Source: Veillonella tobetsuensis (GTDB taxonomy: Bacteria > Bacillota > Negativicutes > Veillonellales > Veillonellaceae). Taken from it: a stretch of DNA of 64,000 nucleotides. Every line of letters begins with the position of its first letter. The first letter of the stretch is position 1. Under the pieces are notes generated by a model. It did not search any database. It saw nothing but the letters and a program-made list of their open reading frames with translations, and was not told the DNA's origin. Positions 10,139 to 13,627 of the stretch are shown here, piece by piece. The stretch covers positions 124,001 through 188,000 of the forward strand of contig NZ_BBXI01000002.1 of the NCBI RefSeq assembly GCF_001078375.1, in the 5' to 3' direction. The position numbers and the translations under genes are program-made.

Positions 10139-10708
10139 ATGAAATCTTTGTTAGTAAAAGGTAGTATTGCGTTGGCATTAGCAGCGGCATTTGGGGTAAA
10201 CGCACCTGCTGTAAATGCGGCTGATATTGTACCTGTAGAACCAACAGTAGAGGCTGTTGATGCTAATCATGCAGGGATTGCGGGTGCTAATCTTTTGCTT
10301 AATGCCTTTATTGAAAGACATCCAAAAGCAGCGATTACAGAAATTGCATTTGATGGCGAAGATAGTCAAATCAAATATGAAGTAGAGGGCTTCGATACAA
10401 CTGGTAGATATGAGTTGAAATATAATTTCAGTACAGATCAAATGAGCGAAACAAAAGACGGGGACTACAAAGTTGCTTTAGAACGCAAAGCCTTTGACCC
10501 TACTCGTATTTTGCCGCCACAAGCTATCGTTAACTTTGCCTTTGCTCAAGCACAAGGTCAAGCGACAAGCCTTAATAGCTGGTCTGTAAAAAATGAAAAA
10601 GGCCGATTCGTATATGATGTAGACTTTGGTGCAGCTAATCATCAAGAAATCGAAGTCATTATTGATGCTTTCACAGGTGAATTACTTTCTGTTAAAGGCG
10701 TTAAATAG
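10139..10708 (+). CDS. Exported PepSY-domain protein
   Basis: This 189-residue protein has a clear signal peptide (KSLLVKGSIALALAAAFGVN, cleavage near VNAAD). Two PepSY-like units follow: AGANLLLNAFIERHPKAAIT...YEVEGFDTTGRYELKYNF, and AIVNFAFAQAQGQATS...YDVDFGAANHQEIEVIIDAF with the typical GELLSVKG end. PepSY domains occur in protease inhibitors and cell-envelope proteins, so a periplasmic role is likely but the target is unknown. The start has a strong GTAGGAGG site. A terminator follows. Confidence 0.8.
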   Translation: MKSLLVKGSIALALAAAFGVNAPAVNAADIVPVEPTVEAVDANHAGIAGANLLLNAFIERHPKAAITEIAFDGEDSQIKYEVEGFDTTGRYELKYNFSTDQMSETKDGDYKVALERKAFDPTRILPPQAIVNFAFAQAQGQATSLNSWSVKNEKGRFVYDVDFGAANHQEIEVIIDAFTGELLSVKGVK

Positions 10709-10811: not shown

Positions 10812-11831
10812 ATGCAGTTTAAAGAAGAGTGGAGAGCGTTTCTAAGCAATATAAAAAGTATAAAGGAGAATAGGCGGATAACGAACTTCCCGTATGCGTT
10901 TGCGATTATCAATATCCATATTATTTATACGTGGACCATGCTTATCTTATTAGCATCTGTTTTAGGCGGTCGCGTAACTATGACTGTGGACAAGGGGATA
11001 ACCATGTCGGCTACATCGCCTTTTCTTATCAGTGGCCCTACATTCTTTTGGTGTGCAGCTATATTAGTGTTTATAACGAATCTATTGGTTGCGGTACTCA
11101 TTAAAAGACGATATAACGATGTAAATCGCACGTGGGCGCCTGCTCTAGGAACCTTTGCCTTTATCGTTGTTATTATAACAAACCTTGTACTTTGCATTAC
11201 ATTCCTCAAGCCTATTCTTATAGGAGCTCATCTGTCCCTTGATGATACATTTATGTTCATGTTTAGAGGTAGTGCGATAATGCATTTGGTTTGTTTAGCA
11301 TCCTGTTTACTCCGTAAAAATAAGGCCCGTAATACGTATGGATTACCTGATGGAGGCCAAGTGATAGGGAATTATGAATTGTCCTATGAAACAATTATGC
11401 CTATTGCTAAGGAAGGTGAAAGCTGGACTGATTCACTGGGGATTGGCAAGGGGTTAGAGTCCTATAAATATATGTTTTTTGATGGCGTTATAGACTATAA
11501 AAGCCGCACTAAGCGCCATGAAATTTTCTGGGGAAACGTTCTATTTTGGTTGATTTATATTATTGTTGCTGTAATCTTACAAAAGGTATTACCCTTTGCC
11601 GTATCTTCGTATTTTGTAAATGAATTTATGAATAATTTTTACGGTGGCCTTATGGGCGTATGGTGGTTAGCGGCTAATATTGCTGCTTGTTATCGGCGAT
11701 TACATGATGCGGGGCGCAGTGCTTTCTGGATTCTTGGGTTTTTAATTCCTTTTGTTAATGTATATAGCTATTATTTGGTTAACTGGAAGCCCTCTTTAAA
11801 AACGGTAAATCCTGTTTCACATGAAGAATAG
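10812..11831 (+). CDS. DUF805 membrane protein
   Basis: The 339-residue product has at least three N-terminal membrane helices, a soluble middle part, and a C-terminal DUF805 domain with the family's conserved pattern (IFWGNVLFWLIYI ... AACYRRLHDAGRSAFWILGF). Most DUF805 proteins are 100-150 residues, so the long N-terminal extension is unusual. The function is unknown. I start at the ATG at 10812, which has a GAGAGAGG site; the frame is open 15 codons further up but that part overlaps the preceding terminator. Confidence 0.75.
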   Translation: MQFKEEWRAFLSNIKSIKENRRITNFPYAFAIINIHIIYTWTMLILLASVLGGRVTMTVDKGITMSATSPFLISGPTFFWCAAILVFITNLLVAVLIKRRYNDVNRTWAPALGTFAFIVVIITNLVLCITFLKPILIGAHLSLDDTFMFMFRGSAIMHLVCLASCLLRKNKARNTYGLPDGGQVIGNYELSYETIMPIAKEGESWTDSLGIGKGLESYKYMFFDGVIDYKSRTKRHEIFWGNVLFWLIYIIVAVILQKVLPFAVSSYFVNEFMNNFYGGLMGVWWLAANIAACYRRLHDAGRSAFWILGFLIPFVNVYSYYLVNWKPSLKTVNPVSHEE

Positions 11832-11895
11832 TCAGTACTATAAAGAATAATTATTACTGCAAGGAATAATTGAATAGGCCTATTGGCTGTACGAA

Positions 11896-11936
11896 AACAT
11901 ATCGCTCCTATTTCTTGGGAGCGATATGTTTGTTTT
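11896..11936 (+). terminator. Terminator after the DUF805 gene
   Basis: AACATATCGCTCC (11896-11908) pairs with GGAGCGATATGTT (11918-11930), followed by TGTTTTTG. Confidence 0.8.
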
Positions 11937-12210
11937 TGTGAAATTTTCTAAAAATTTGCTCATGAATTATGGACTACTATATTTATTTTGACATGTATTC
12001 TTTGAATTTATAAAGAGTACTCATAATATGGGCATTGTAGTACATATAGTCATTAATATGAAATGATTATTCATGAATATAAACTCTTATATTATATGGT
12101 GATATAGCTAAATTTTCACATATATTTCATGCCGGATAATAGTAAATCTTAATAATTTAATTTATATCTCATATGAGATAGGTAAGATGAATTCAGTTAG
12201 TGAATAACTA

Positions 12211-12456
12211 CTATACCATTACACGGAGCTAGCGCTATCCCATCGGCGCTAATGAATGCATAACATCTCCCATATGCATTCACCAGGGCCCTCTGGTTGG
12301 ACAGACTTACGTTGACTCTCTCCTATGTTATCTGTCGCCTTTGGGCCTCCTTATGAAGGGCTTCCCTCCCTTTTCATAAATATTATCTTTTCCACACACA
12401 CATGTGCATGGTATAGGAGAATAAAAGCATCACCAAGATATTGGTGGTGCTTTTAT
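12211..12456 (+). ncRNA. Probable structured non-coding RNA with its own terminator
   Basis: No credible reading frame occupies 11832-12505. Within it, a perfect 9-bp stem closes a domain of about 206 nt: CTATACCAT (12211-12219) with ATGGTATAG (12408-12416). Inside lie several hairpins: TAGCGC/GCGCTA (12230-12251), TGAATGCAT/ATGCATTCA (12253-12282), CCAG/CTGG (12283-12296), GACAGA/TCTGTC (12300-12336) and TTATGAA/TTCATAA (12351-12379). The hairpin GCATCACCA/TGGTGGTGC (12427-12450) followed by TTTTATTCTT then acts as a terminator, which sets the strand. The region is more GC-rich than its flanks. I do not see the marker motifs of tmRNA, SRP RNA, RNase P RNA, T-box, cobalamin, lysine or SAM riboswitches. 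Identity unknown. Confidence 0.55.
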
Positions 12457-12462
12457 TCTTGA

Positions 12463-12499
12463 AAGAGGCTGATTTCGTAAATCCGAATATCAGCCTCTT
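12463..12499 (-). terminator. Terminator after alr (minus strand)
   Basis: Perfect arms AAGAGGCTGAT (12463-12473) and ATCAGCCTCTT (12489-12499), just past the alr stop on the minus strand. Confidence 0.65.
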
Positions 12500-12505
12500 A
12501 GTCGT

Positions 12506-13627
12506 TTATATATATTGTCGTGGTACTCGATCGGAGAACCCACAGAAGATTTCATAAGGAATAGTGGACGCAAGCGCTGCAATTTCAAGAGCTGAGATAC
12601 TTTCATGACCTTGAGAACCTAATAATACAACCTTGTCGCCTGGTTTTACTGTAATTGTATCTGGCACTGCCACCATGAATTGGTCCATACAGATACGGCC
12701 TACTACAGGGCAACGGGTACCTTGGATGAGGACGGTACCACGATTGGATAGGCTGCGAGGATAACCATCAGCATAGCCAACAGGAATCGTTGCAATGGTC
12801 ATTGGCTCAGGAGTCACATAGGTAGAACCGTAGCCAATGCCTTCACCGGCATCTAGATGTTGTACATGTACCACTTCGCTATGGAAAGAGAGTACCGGTT
12901 TAAGACCTAGACGATTTGGCACGTCCAGAGATGGCATGATGCCGTATTGGATAATACCAGGTCTAGCATCTGTAAATAAGCTATCTTTGACAGACAATAA
13001 TCCTGCACTATTGGCGAGGGAAAAACGATAATCCTCATTTGGACGGAATGCTCGGATTTCATCTACCATTTTATGGAATTTTTGCGCTTGTCCATGTGCG
13101 TGGCTTTGATCTGCCGCATCAGCATTACTCATATGTGAAAAGAATCCATCCACTGCAAGATTAGGGTAGGATTCAACCCGTTTGATAAATTCTACTGCGT
13201 ATTCTGGGGTAATGCCAATACGATGCATGCCCGTATCAACGGCCACTGCAACGCGAATAATCATATCGTGATTATCGGCCACCTTGTTGAGGGCTTCTAA
13301 ATCAGTAGATTCACAAACAGCCGGAATAGAGTTCGTATCGGCGACGAGCTCAAAGGATTGAGGTCTAGTAAGGCCTAATAGATAAATAGGTACCATAATG
13401 CCTGCATTGCGAAGCGGTACTGATTCCTCTGGAATGGCAACGGCTAATGATTCATACCCTTCCTCGACAGCGATACGCCCCATCATAACGCTGCCGTGAC
13501 CATATCCATTAGCCTTGATTACGGCCGTGGATGTGCTCCACTCAGGGAGGCTATCTTTTATTTTTCGTAGGTTCTCTCGAACCAAACTTGTATCTATCGT
13601 TAAATATGTTGGTCTCATGATATTCAT
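12506..13627 (-). CDS. alr: Alanine racemase
   Basis: The 373-residue protein interconverts L- and D-alanine for peptidoglycan. It shows the PLP-lysine motif AVIKANGYGHG near residue 38 (usually VKANAYGHG), the fold-type III barrel, the catalytic Tyr region GEGIGYGSTYVTPEP, and the C-terminal CMDQFMV stretch. Two starts are possible: ATG at 13627, with AGGAG only two bases upstream, or ATG at 13618, with AGGAG 11 bases upstream. It is a monocistronic gene with its own terminator, opposite to the structured RNA. Confidence 0.92.
   Translation of the reverse strand: MNIMRPTYLTIDTSLVRENLRKIKDSLPEWSTSTAVIKANGYGHGSVMMGRIAVEEGYESLAVAIPEESVPLRNAGIMVPIYLLGLTRPQSFELVADTNSIPAVCESTDLEALNKVADNHDMIIRVAVAVDTGMHRIGITPEYAVEFIKRVESYPNLAVDGFFSHMSNADAADQSHAHGQAQKFHKMVDEIRAFRPNEDYRFSLANSAGLLSVKDSLFTDARPGIIQYGIMPSLDVPNRLGLKPVLSFHSEVVHVQHLDAGEGIGYGSTYVTPEPMTIATIPVGYADGYPRSLSNRGTVLIQGTRCPVVGRICMDQFMVAVPDTITVKPGDKVVLLGSQGHESISALEIAALASTIPYEIFCGFSDRVPRQYI

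Follow-up and report, generated by a model that had tools for sequence, protein, structure and literature searches.

An apparently noncoding, structured RNA of Veillonella with a candidate anti-Shine-Dalgarno seed

Locus and overall structure

Veillonella, an oral diderm Firmicute, is common in the mouth and gut. In the window, the 64,000-nucleotide stretch of the Veillonella tobetsuensis genome that was analysed, a structured RNA lies between a DUF805 gene and the convergent alanine racemase gene alr, with a gene for a PepSY protein further upstream (Table 1). The RNA is set apart from the DUF805 gene by that gene's own strong terminator, and 280 nt follow before the RNA begins. The GC content of the RNA is 46.6%, versus 23.0% in 11940-12200 and 38.5% in the whole window, in agreement with an earlier note on this DNA, which had described a multi-hairpin RNA that is GC-richer than its AT-rich flanks. 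The perfect 9-bp closing stem that it had placed at 12211-12219 and 12408-12416 is exact in its coordinates, the first strand (CTATACCAT) being the exact reverse complement of the second.

The minimum-energy fold of 12205-12460 has a z-score of -9.3 relative to 200 dinucleotide shuffles, none of which is at least as stable. Without the terminator, the z-scores are -6.0 on the plus strand and -3.8 on the minus strand (60 shuffles). As the earlier note had proposed, the closing stem P1 encloses at least four hairpins in this fold. The loop motif of H2 (AUCUCCCAU) is unpaired with a probability of 1.0, and the H4 loop has G as the last base in three sequences and reads UUCCUUUCC in V. denticariosi and one other relative. 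The H3 apex might also pair with the 3' strand of P1 (TATAGGAGAG), a putative interaction that was noticed by eye and that competes with P1.

The block directly upstream of the RNA is, to judge from its sequence, a probable promoter or operator region, and its perfect palindrome ATTCATGAAT (12069-12078), which is present in V. atypica too, is a possible operator. Promoter-like sites in 11800-12560 show no excess, with six found versus 4.9 expected from shuffles. On the downstream side, alr lies on the minus strand, and not until 13850 does a plus-strand gene with a Pfam match begin, which bears out the claim that no plus-strand gene follows. A leader riboswitch is ruled out, as there is no same-strand gene behind the RNA and a terminator-like hairpin lies between the RNA and the convergent alr.

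Table 1. Positions of the RNA, its substructures, its neighbours and related sites
Feature	Positions	Strand	Remarks
PepSY protein gene	10139..10708	+	close homologues (E <= 1e-67) in the same 11 genomes as the RNA
Strong terminator of the DUF805 gene	11895..11931	+	terminator scan
Upstream block	12054..12200	+	70% identity with V. atypica; holds the palindrome ATTCATGAAT
Structured RNA body, P1 to P1	12211..12416	+	z of the fold excluding the terminator, -6.0; present in 11 of the 14 Veillonella genomes, this one counted
Closing stem P1, 5' strand CTATACCAT	12211..12219	+	complements 12408-12416; long-range closing stem in folds of 11 of 11 species
Hairpin H1, loop with UAUCCCAU	12230..12251	+	among the 11, here and in V. 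atypica only
Hairpin H2, loop with AUCUCCCAU	12253..12282	+	among the 11, here and in V. atypica only
Hairpin H3 (core)	12286..12348	+	6 of 18 main-stem pairs changed on both sides
H3 apical segment UUGACUCUCUCCUAUG	12312..12327	+	16 nt, invariant in 11 of 11 sequences; candidate anti-Shine-Dalgarno seed
Hairpin H4 (core)	12351..12379	+	1 of 9 pairs changed on both sides; 7 never vary
H4 loop UUCCCUCCC	12362..12370	+	aligned homologues
Fifth hairpin, 4 bp	12395..12406	+	minimum-energy fold
Closing stem P1, 3' strand ATGGTATAG	12408..12416	+	fold; exact complementarity; shuffled-partner test
Terminator-like hairpin, 20 bp	12417..12460	+	GC-rich core ...GCATCACCAA/TTGGTGGTGC, then TTTTATTCTT, able to pair with the preceding A-run
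alr, alanine racemase	12506..13627	-	convergent neighbour of the RNA in all 11 species
Six genes with the start signal AGGAGAGAG	V. parvula SKV38 2031247, 1326786, 1656500, 2030217, 232371, 1866182		

Conservation and covariation

Conservation in relatives, on which the earlier note had let its proposal depend, is observed: a DNA search reveals homologues in 11 of the 14 Veillonella genomes, this one counted, and always adjoining the convergent alr. A covariance model of the two core hairpins H3 and H4, comprising 95 positions, was built from seven sequences (alignment A4), because MAFFT alignments set the stems out of register; this concerns the H3 stem of the two groups described below in alignments A1 and A2, and H4 of loci L010 and L011 in A3. 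Under stricter filters, which lose weak matches, a search of 61 genomes with this model again picked out these 11 Veillonella genomes out of 14 and gave no hit in the 47 further genomes of the order; eight of the 61 fall outside the set of at least 90% completeness and at most 5% contamination. The model recovers the four copies absent from its training, with scores of 93.2 bits (L010), 91.3 bits (L011), 66.1 bits (V. atypica) and 48.9 bits (window). A scan of genome contigs with a 16-mer gave 27 records, six of which are Veillonella with the RNA; among the other 21, the three inspected (L043, L047 and L048) contain no RNA, and the remaining 18 come from scattered taxa, as chance would give.

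In the model-fitted alignment, which leans to the structure of the model, 96.6% of the cells are paired versus a shuffle mean of 92.3%, and 7 of 30 pairs are changed on both sides versus a mean of 2.7; none of 500 shuffles reaches either value, although kinship alone can beat such shuffles without structure. The compensating base changes that the earlier note had suggested looking for are thereby present in the core. The number of further pair types shows no excess (408 of 500 shuffles reach the observed value). Sliding the partners by one to three columns lowers pairing to 30-44%. Identical rows were counted once in alignment A5 (11 sequences, 9 distinct).

The bases of P1 differ between groups: CTATACCATTACAC pairs with GTGCATGGTATAG in this genome, ACTGTAAAGC with GCTTTACAGT in the sequences of the V. 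rogosae type, and GTGAAG with CTTCAC in the V. denticariosi pair. P1 outpairs all 300 shuffled partners in seven of the eight sequences tested (of 11); in this genome, 10 of 300 do equally well.

Two architectures and the PepSY neighbourhood

The RNA occurs in two architectures. In this genome it measures 206 nt plus the terminator (~250 nt in all), and in the relatives 250-335 nt plus the terminator. Here and in V. atypica, the body contains H1 and H2 and lies at a distance from the upstream gene. The PepSY gene and the RNA of V. atypica are separated by about 350 nt and a tRNA-Thr; this tRNA-Thr (cgt) is located at L002:1074-1149, and a tRNA search of the window found none. The other nine sequences (group 2), including those of V. 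parvula, V. rogosae, V. infantium, V. denticariosi and V. sp. T11011-6, are without H1 and H2. They carry instead an A/C-rich linker of 66 to 137 nt with 1-6% G (four of nine measured), followed by the core and a conserved single strand, CUCUCUCUCACAAUAAGAACGUAACU, which seven group-2 sequences share without change and which lacks two bases in L010 and L011.

In all nine group-2 genomes, about 5-15 nt lie between the stop codon of a second, lysine-rich PepSY gene and the outer stem. The description of the RNA as an independent one, as made in the earlier note, may therefore hold only for this genome and V. atypica, where it stands alone; in the others an mRNA 3' end may be its source. The PepSY gene of the window has close homologues (E <= 1e-67) in all 11 genomes with the RNA and in none of the three without it (best E-value there 1.8e-13). 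In these three genomes alr has different neighbours, and in G005 the block between seems to be missing, because the gene behind alr resembles one beyond the PepSY gene of the window.

Several features of the PepSY genes were observed in passing. The Veillonella genomes searched hold several PepSY-domain paralogues, with 1 to 5 matches per genome to the PepSY protein of the window. In L003-L009 (seven of nine group-2 genomes), the lysine-rich PepSY gene consists of two overlapping frames, e.g. at L003:368-1347. The split point is a conserved run, GAGG-A9-CTC, with the PepSY half in the -1 frame, and L007 has a further frame break in the PepSY half. In L010 (V. denticariosi) and L011 the same gene is one continuous frame of 330 aa. 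The split gene is a candidate for programmed -1 frameshifting or transcriptional slippage.

The position behind the PepSY stop codon raises the question of whether the structure is a 3'-UTR element, i.e. a tail that would act in cis on the stability, termination or processing of the PepSY mRNA, with incidental C-rich loops. The co-presence or co-absence of the RNA and close PepSY homologues in 14 of 14 genomes agrees with such a role, though shared ancestry could suffice for it, and no plus-strand promoter-like site was found at L003:1050-1360. However, the structure is kept here behind a strong terminator and 280 nt, and it is kept in V. atypica across the intervening tRNA, while an invariant apex of 16 nt would exceed the needs of a terminator or stability stem. 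On balance, an action in cis is considered unlikely, if still one of the two better alternatives. Small RNAs from mRNA 3' ends (cf. the review PMC9438474) resemble the RNA of the nine species in lying right behind a stop codon and ending in a terminator-like hairpin; they differ from the situation here and in V. atypica, where the RNA is separate from the upstream gene.

About equally improbable is a function as a scaffold, in which conserved loops and linkers would bind a protein or ligand, in an RNP or another ornate RNA, without pairing to mRNA. The large size, the closing stem and the invariant apex would suit such a molecule, as would the identical single strand and the G-poor linker of group 2. 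No Rfam class matches, however, and the variants differ in half of the molecule (H1 and H2 versus the linker), a change that a tight RNP would presumably tolerate poorly.

Coding potential, strand and terminator

The earlier note had seen no reading frame in the region. An ORF of 45 aa does exist (12325-12462), but its frame is not kept in relatives. A dual-function RNA or small mRNA, with a short peptide translated from the conserved ATG in the H3 loop, is very improbable. The ATG is kept in 11 of 11 sequences and the peptides start with M[PL]S; yet their lengths range from 10 to 79 aa with shifting frames, the ATG is preceded by pyrimidines and lacks a ribosome-binding site, and a conserved RNA stem would by itself produce such similarity. 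The variation in peptide length and frame among relatives rules out a small ORF.

The RNA is encoded on the plus strand, as fixed by its G-U pairs. The core alignment contains G-U in 23 cells versus C-A in 2 cells, and if read on the minus strand the 23 G-U cells would become mismatches; the plus strand is therefore the RNA. In six of six RNAs tested (of 11), the z-scores are lower on the plus strand (-4.4 to -8.7) than on the minus strand (-1.6 to -4.4).

The hairpin behind P1, proposed in the earlier note as a Rho-independent terminator, is indeed present, but it starts directly behind the closing stem and not 10 bases later. A consensus terminator scan lists the hairpin at 12417-12460 on the minus strand only; the plus strand is not listed because the T-run sits in the 3' arm, where it pairs with the preceding A-run. 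In the same scan of locus L003 the corresponding 3' hairpin is listed on neither strand. A hairpin with a T-rich 3' arm lies directly 3' of the RNA on the plus side in 11 of 11 sequences. A hairpin of this type may function on both strands, in keeping with the convergent orientation of alr.

An RNA on the minus strand, whose GGA loops would sequester CsrA like CsrB or RsmZ, is so improbable that it hardly competes. That strand also folds better than shuffles (see above), its loops carry GGGAG and AGGAG, and the terminator scan lists the hairpin on it. Against this stand the wobble pairs and z-scores just described; moreover, the minus-strand terminator would precede an RNA read in that direction and is suited to alr, and no match to CsrA (PF02599) is found in this genome at E <= 0.001, a search that gives a match in 3 of 14 control genomes. 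The missing CsrA match and the wobble pairs favouring the plus strand rule out a CsrA sponge.

Taken together, the locus appears to contain a structured, noncoding plus-strand RNA of about 250 nt here, found only in Veillonella.

Search against known RNA families

A search with Rfam 15 over both strands of the whole window gives no match at the gathering threshold, so that the absence of housekeeping-RNA signatures reported in the earlier note is upheld. In 11800-12560, at E-values up to 10, just RAGATH-35, RefA9, snoR10 and mir-2068 appear, far below their gathering scores. For the homologous loci L002, L003, L006 and L010, the sole Rfam match is the tRNA in L002 (V. atypica). With no family at the gathering threshold here or, for this RNA, in the four homologous loci, any Rfam class is ruled out. 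That the RNA is 6S RNA or another housekeeping RNA overlooked in the earlier note, as its size and closing helix might suggest, has next to no probability, given the four sub-threshold matches only and a single genomic match to 6S RNA (RF00013, 92.5 bits), which lies on contig C15 and not at this locus and so rules out that identity.

Proposed mode of action

Our preferred reading, held tentatively and with somewhat less than even confidence, is that of a trans-acting plus-strand sRNA found only in Veillonella, which would block Shine-Dalgarno sequences with its C-rich loops, as in LhrC and the Rsa RNAs, and would do so free of Hfq; the analysis shows its structure, strand, conservation, terminator-like hairpin and lack of an Rfam match, and from these we infer transcription, pairing and targets. 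In most species the transcript would derive from the 3' end of the PepSY mRNA, by processing or from an internal promoter, and in this genome and V. atypica from a promoter of its own. The long-range stem would tie the ends of the RNA together and present the pyrimidine-rich loops, which could then pair with the Shine-Dalgarno regions of mRNAs and block their translation. No match to Hfq (PF17209) is found at E <= 0.001 in this genome, and V. parvula SKV38 gives no credible match (best tblastn E-value 0.095); the RNA would therefore act without Hfq.

The C-rich motifs in the loops of H3 and H4 remain mostly unpaired, and their positions are conserved. An anti-Shine-Dalgarno mechanism is the most likely one because of the analogy and the invariant seed, and not because of target statistics. 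In none of the 11 RNAs do accessible YUCC motifs significantly outnumber those of dinucleotide shuffles, the observed number being matched or exceeded by 4 to 17 of 40. Targets were sought in V. parvula SKV38, with 2001 genes called by a simple ORF script. Complements of at least 11 nt to the H3 apex occur at 4 of 2001 gene starts, versus 0.30 for composition shuffles (1 of 500 reaches 4); at 8, 9, 10 and 12 nt, the counts are reached by 9, 34, 19 and 1 of 500 composition shuffles, respectively. With the CTCC core fixed and only the flanks shuffled, 0.83 is expected at 11 nt and the count is reached by 26 of 500 shuffles, and at 8, 9, 10 and 12 nt by 101, 157, 85 and 21 of 500. The predicted H3 targets do not beat these strictest controls. 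For the H4 loop, no complement of at least 10 nt is present at the V. parvula gene starts, and its counts at 8 and 9 nt are reached by 41 and 36 of 500 shuffles. Gene-start matches in V. parvula are fewer for the CU-rich single strand than for its own shuffles, and the best antisense match of the RNA to the V. parvula genome is 15 nt long, with an E-value of 0.55.

A common start signal, AGGAGAGAG, precedes six V. parvula SKV38 genes, encoding DUF2262, SUKH, DUF4261 and Sel1-repeat proteins and two proteins without a Pfam family. SUKH proteins are often toxin immunity proteins. The string TAGGAGAGAG-ATG occurs in 13 of 14 Veillonella genomes, a count that takes in the RNA's own antisense; in the three genomes that lack the RNA, the string occurs 1, 1 and 0 times. 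As a baseline, strings from ribosome-binding site to ATG are identical in 22 of 87 ortholog pairs between V. parvula and 640 kb of G009. Conservation of the ribosome-binding sites is not above this baseline, so the recurrence of start strings proves nothing and no target is claimed. H4 of the window RNA is complementary over 22 nt to a gene of V. atypica (E 0.0045), whose HTPGHK motif suggests a lysine-decarboxylase-like protein. A motif search for the corresponding segment of this protein found nothing in V. parvula or in the window.

A more far-reaching version of the trans-acting sRNA would make it an Hfq-independent regulatory hub of Veillonella that alternates between the 3' end of the PepSY mRNA and a free gene, swaps half of its body (two hairpins versus an A/C-rich tether) and keeps a 16-nt seed, with which it would repress the genes with the AGGAGAGAG start, including those for SUKH, DUF2262 and DUF4261. 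This is doubtful, and ranks below both an action in cis and a scaffold.

Comparison with known regulatory RNAs

According to the available sections of the respective papers, LhrC, RsaE and RNAIII use C-rich motifs of this kind to bind Shine-Dalgarno sequences (PMC4132741, PMC3861533). LhrC of Listeria monocytogenes, which is poor in G, has redundant CU-rich UCCC sites in loops and single strands and acts on lapB, for which Hfq is not needed (PMC4132741, same sections). The Veillonella RNA would resemble it in its C-rich motifs in loops and single strands. In contrast to LhrC, with its five copies of 111-114 nt, it is present in one copy of 206-335 nt plus the terminator, has a long-range closing stem and putative targets only, and shows no Rfam match. 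The Rsa RNAs of Staphylococcus aureus and its RNAIII have hairpins with unpaired UCCC boxes that are predicted or shown to bind translation starts, as stated in the part of PMC3861533 available; these RNAs belong to another lineage and have another architecture, and the Veillonella locus has no Rfam match.

Structured intergenic RNAs have been sought before by a method based on intergenic length and GC content, which was applied to 26 genomes (Brewer et al. 2021, PMC8632094) and yielded, in the sections available, the gltD, ilvD and potE motifs. The ilvD motif is found in Veillonella only, and the potE motif in Veillonella and environmental sequences only. These motifs are alike in being structured intergenic RNAs, but they lie upstream of genes that they would control, whereas no gene lies behind the Veillonella RNA. 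As the gltD, ilvD and potE motifs are all numbered -18-, a Veillonella genome was probably among the 26. The method could flag the present locus, and the supplement may list the RNA as a numbered candidate; the available main-text parts do not mention it. In the accessible parts of PMC7160235, the entries for Veillonella belong to known classes of riboswitches and leaders, apart from an antisense of S19, and the words sRNA, ncRNA, small RNA and noncoding are absent from PMC11633186. Within the sources as available, the literature search gave no report of trans-acting small RNAs in Veillonella; what it turned up were candidate riboswitches and leaders, plus a single antisense candidate (PMC8632094, PMC7160235). 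Judged by Rfam and the papers searched, the RNA would represent a new class of a known kind, that of the structured regulatory sRNAs.

Implications

A conserved RNA with a defined candidate seed would allow a direct test of post-transcriptional control in a genus of which two genomes gave no Hfq match. In addition, the occurrence of two arrangements within one genus, behind an mRNA and as a free gene, would let the origin or movement of an sRNA gene be followed.
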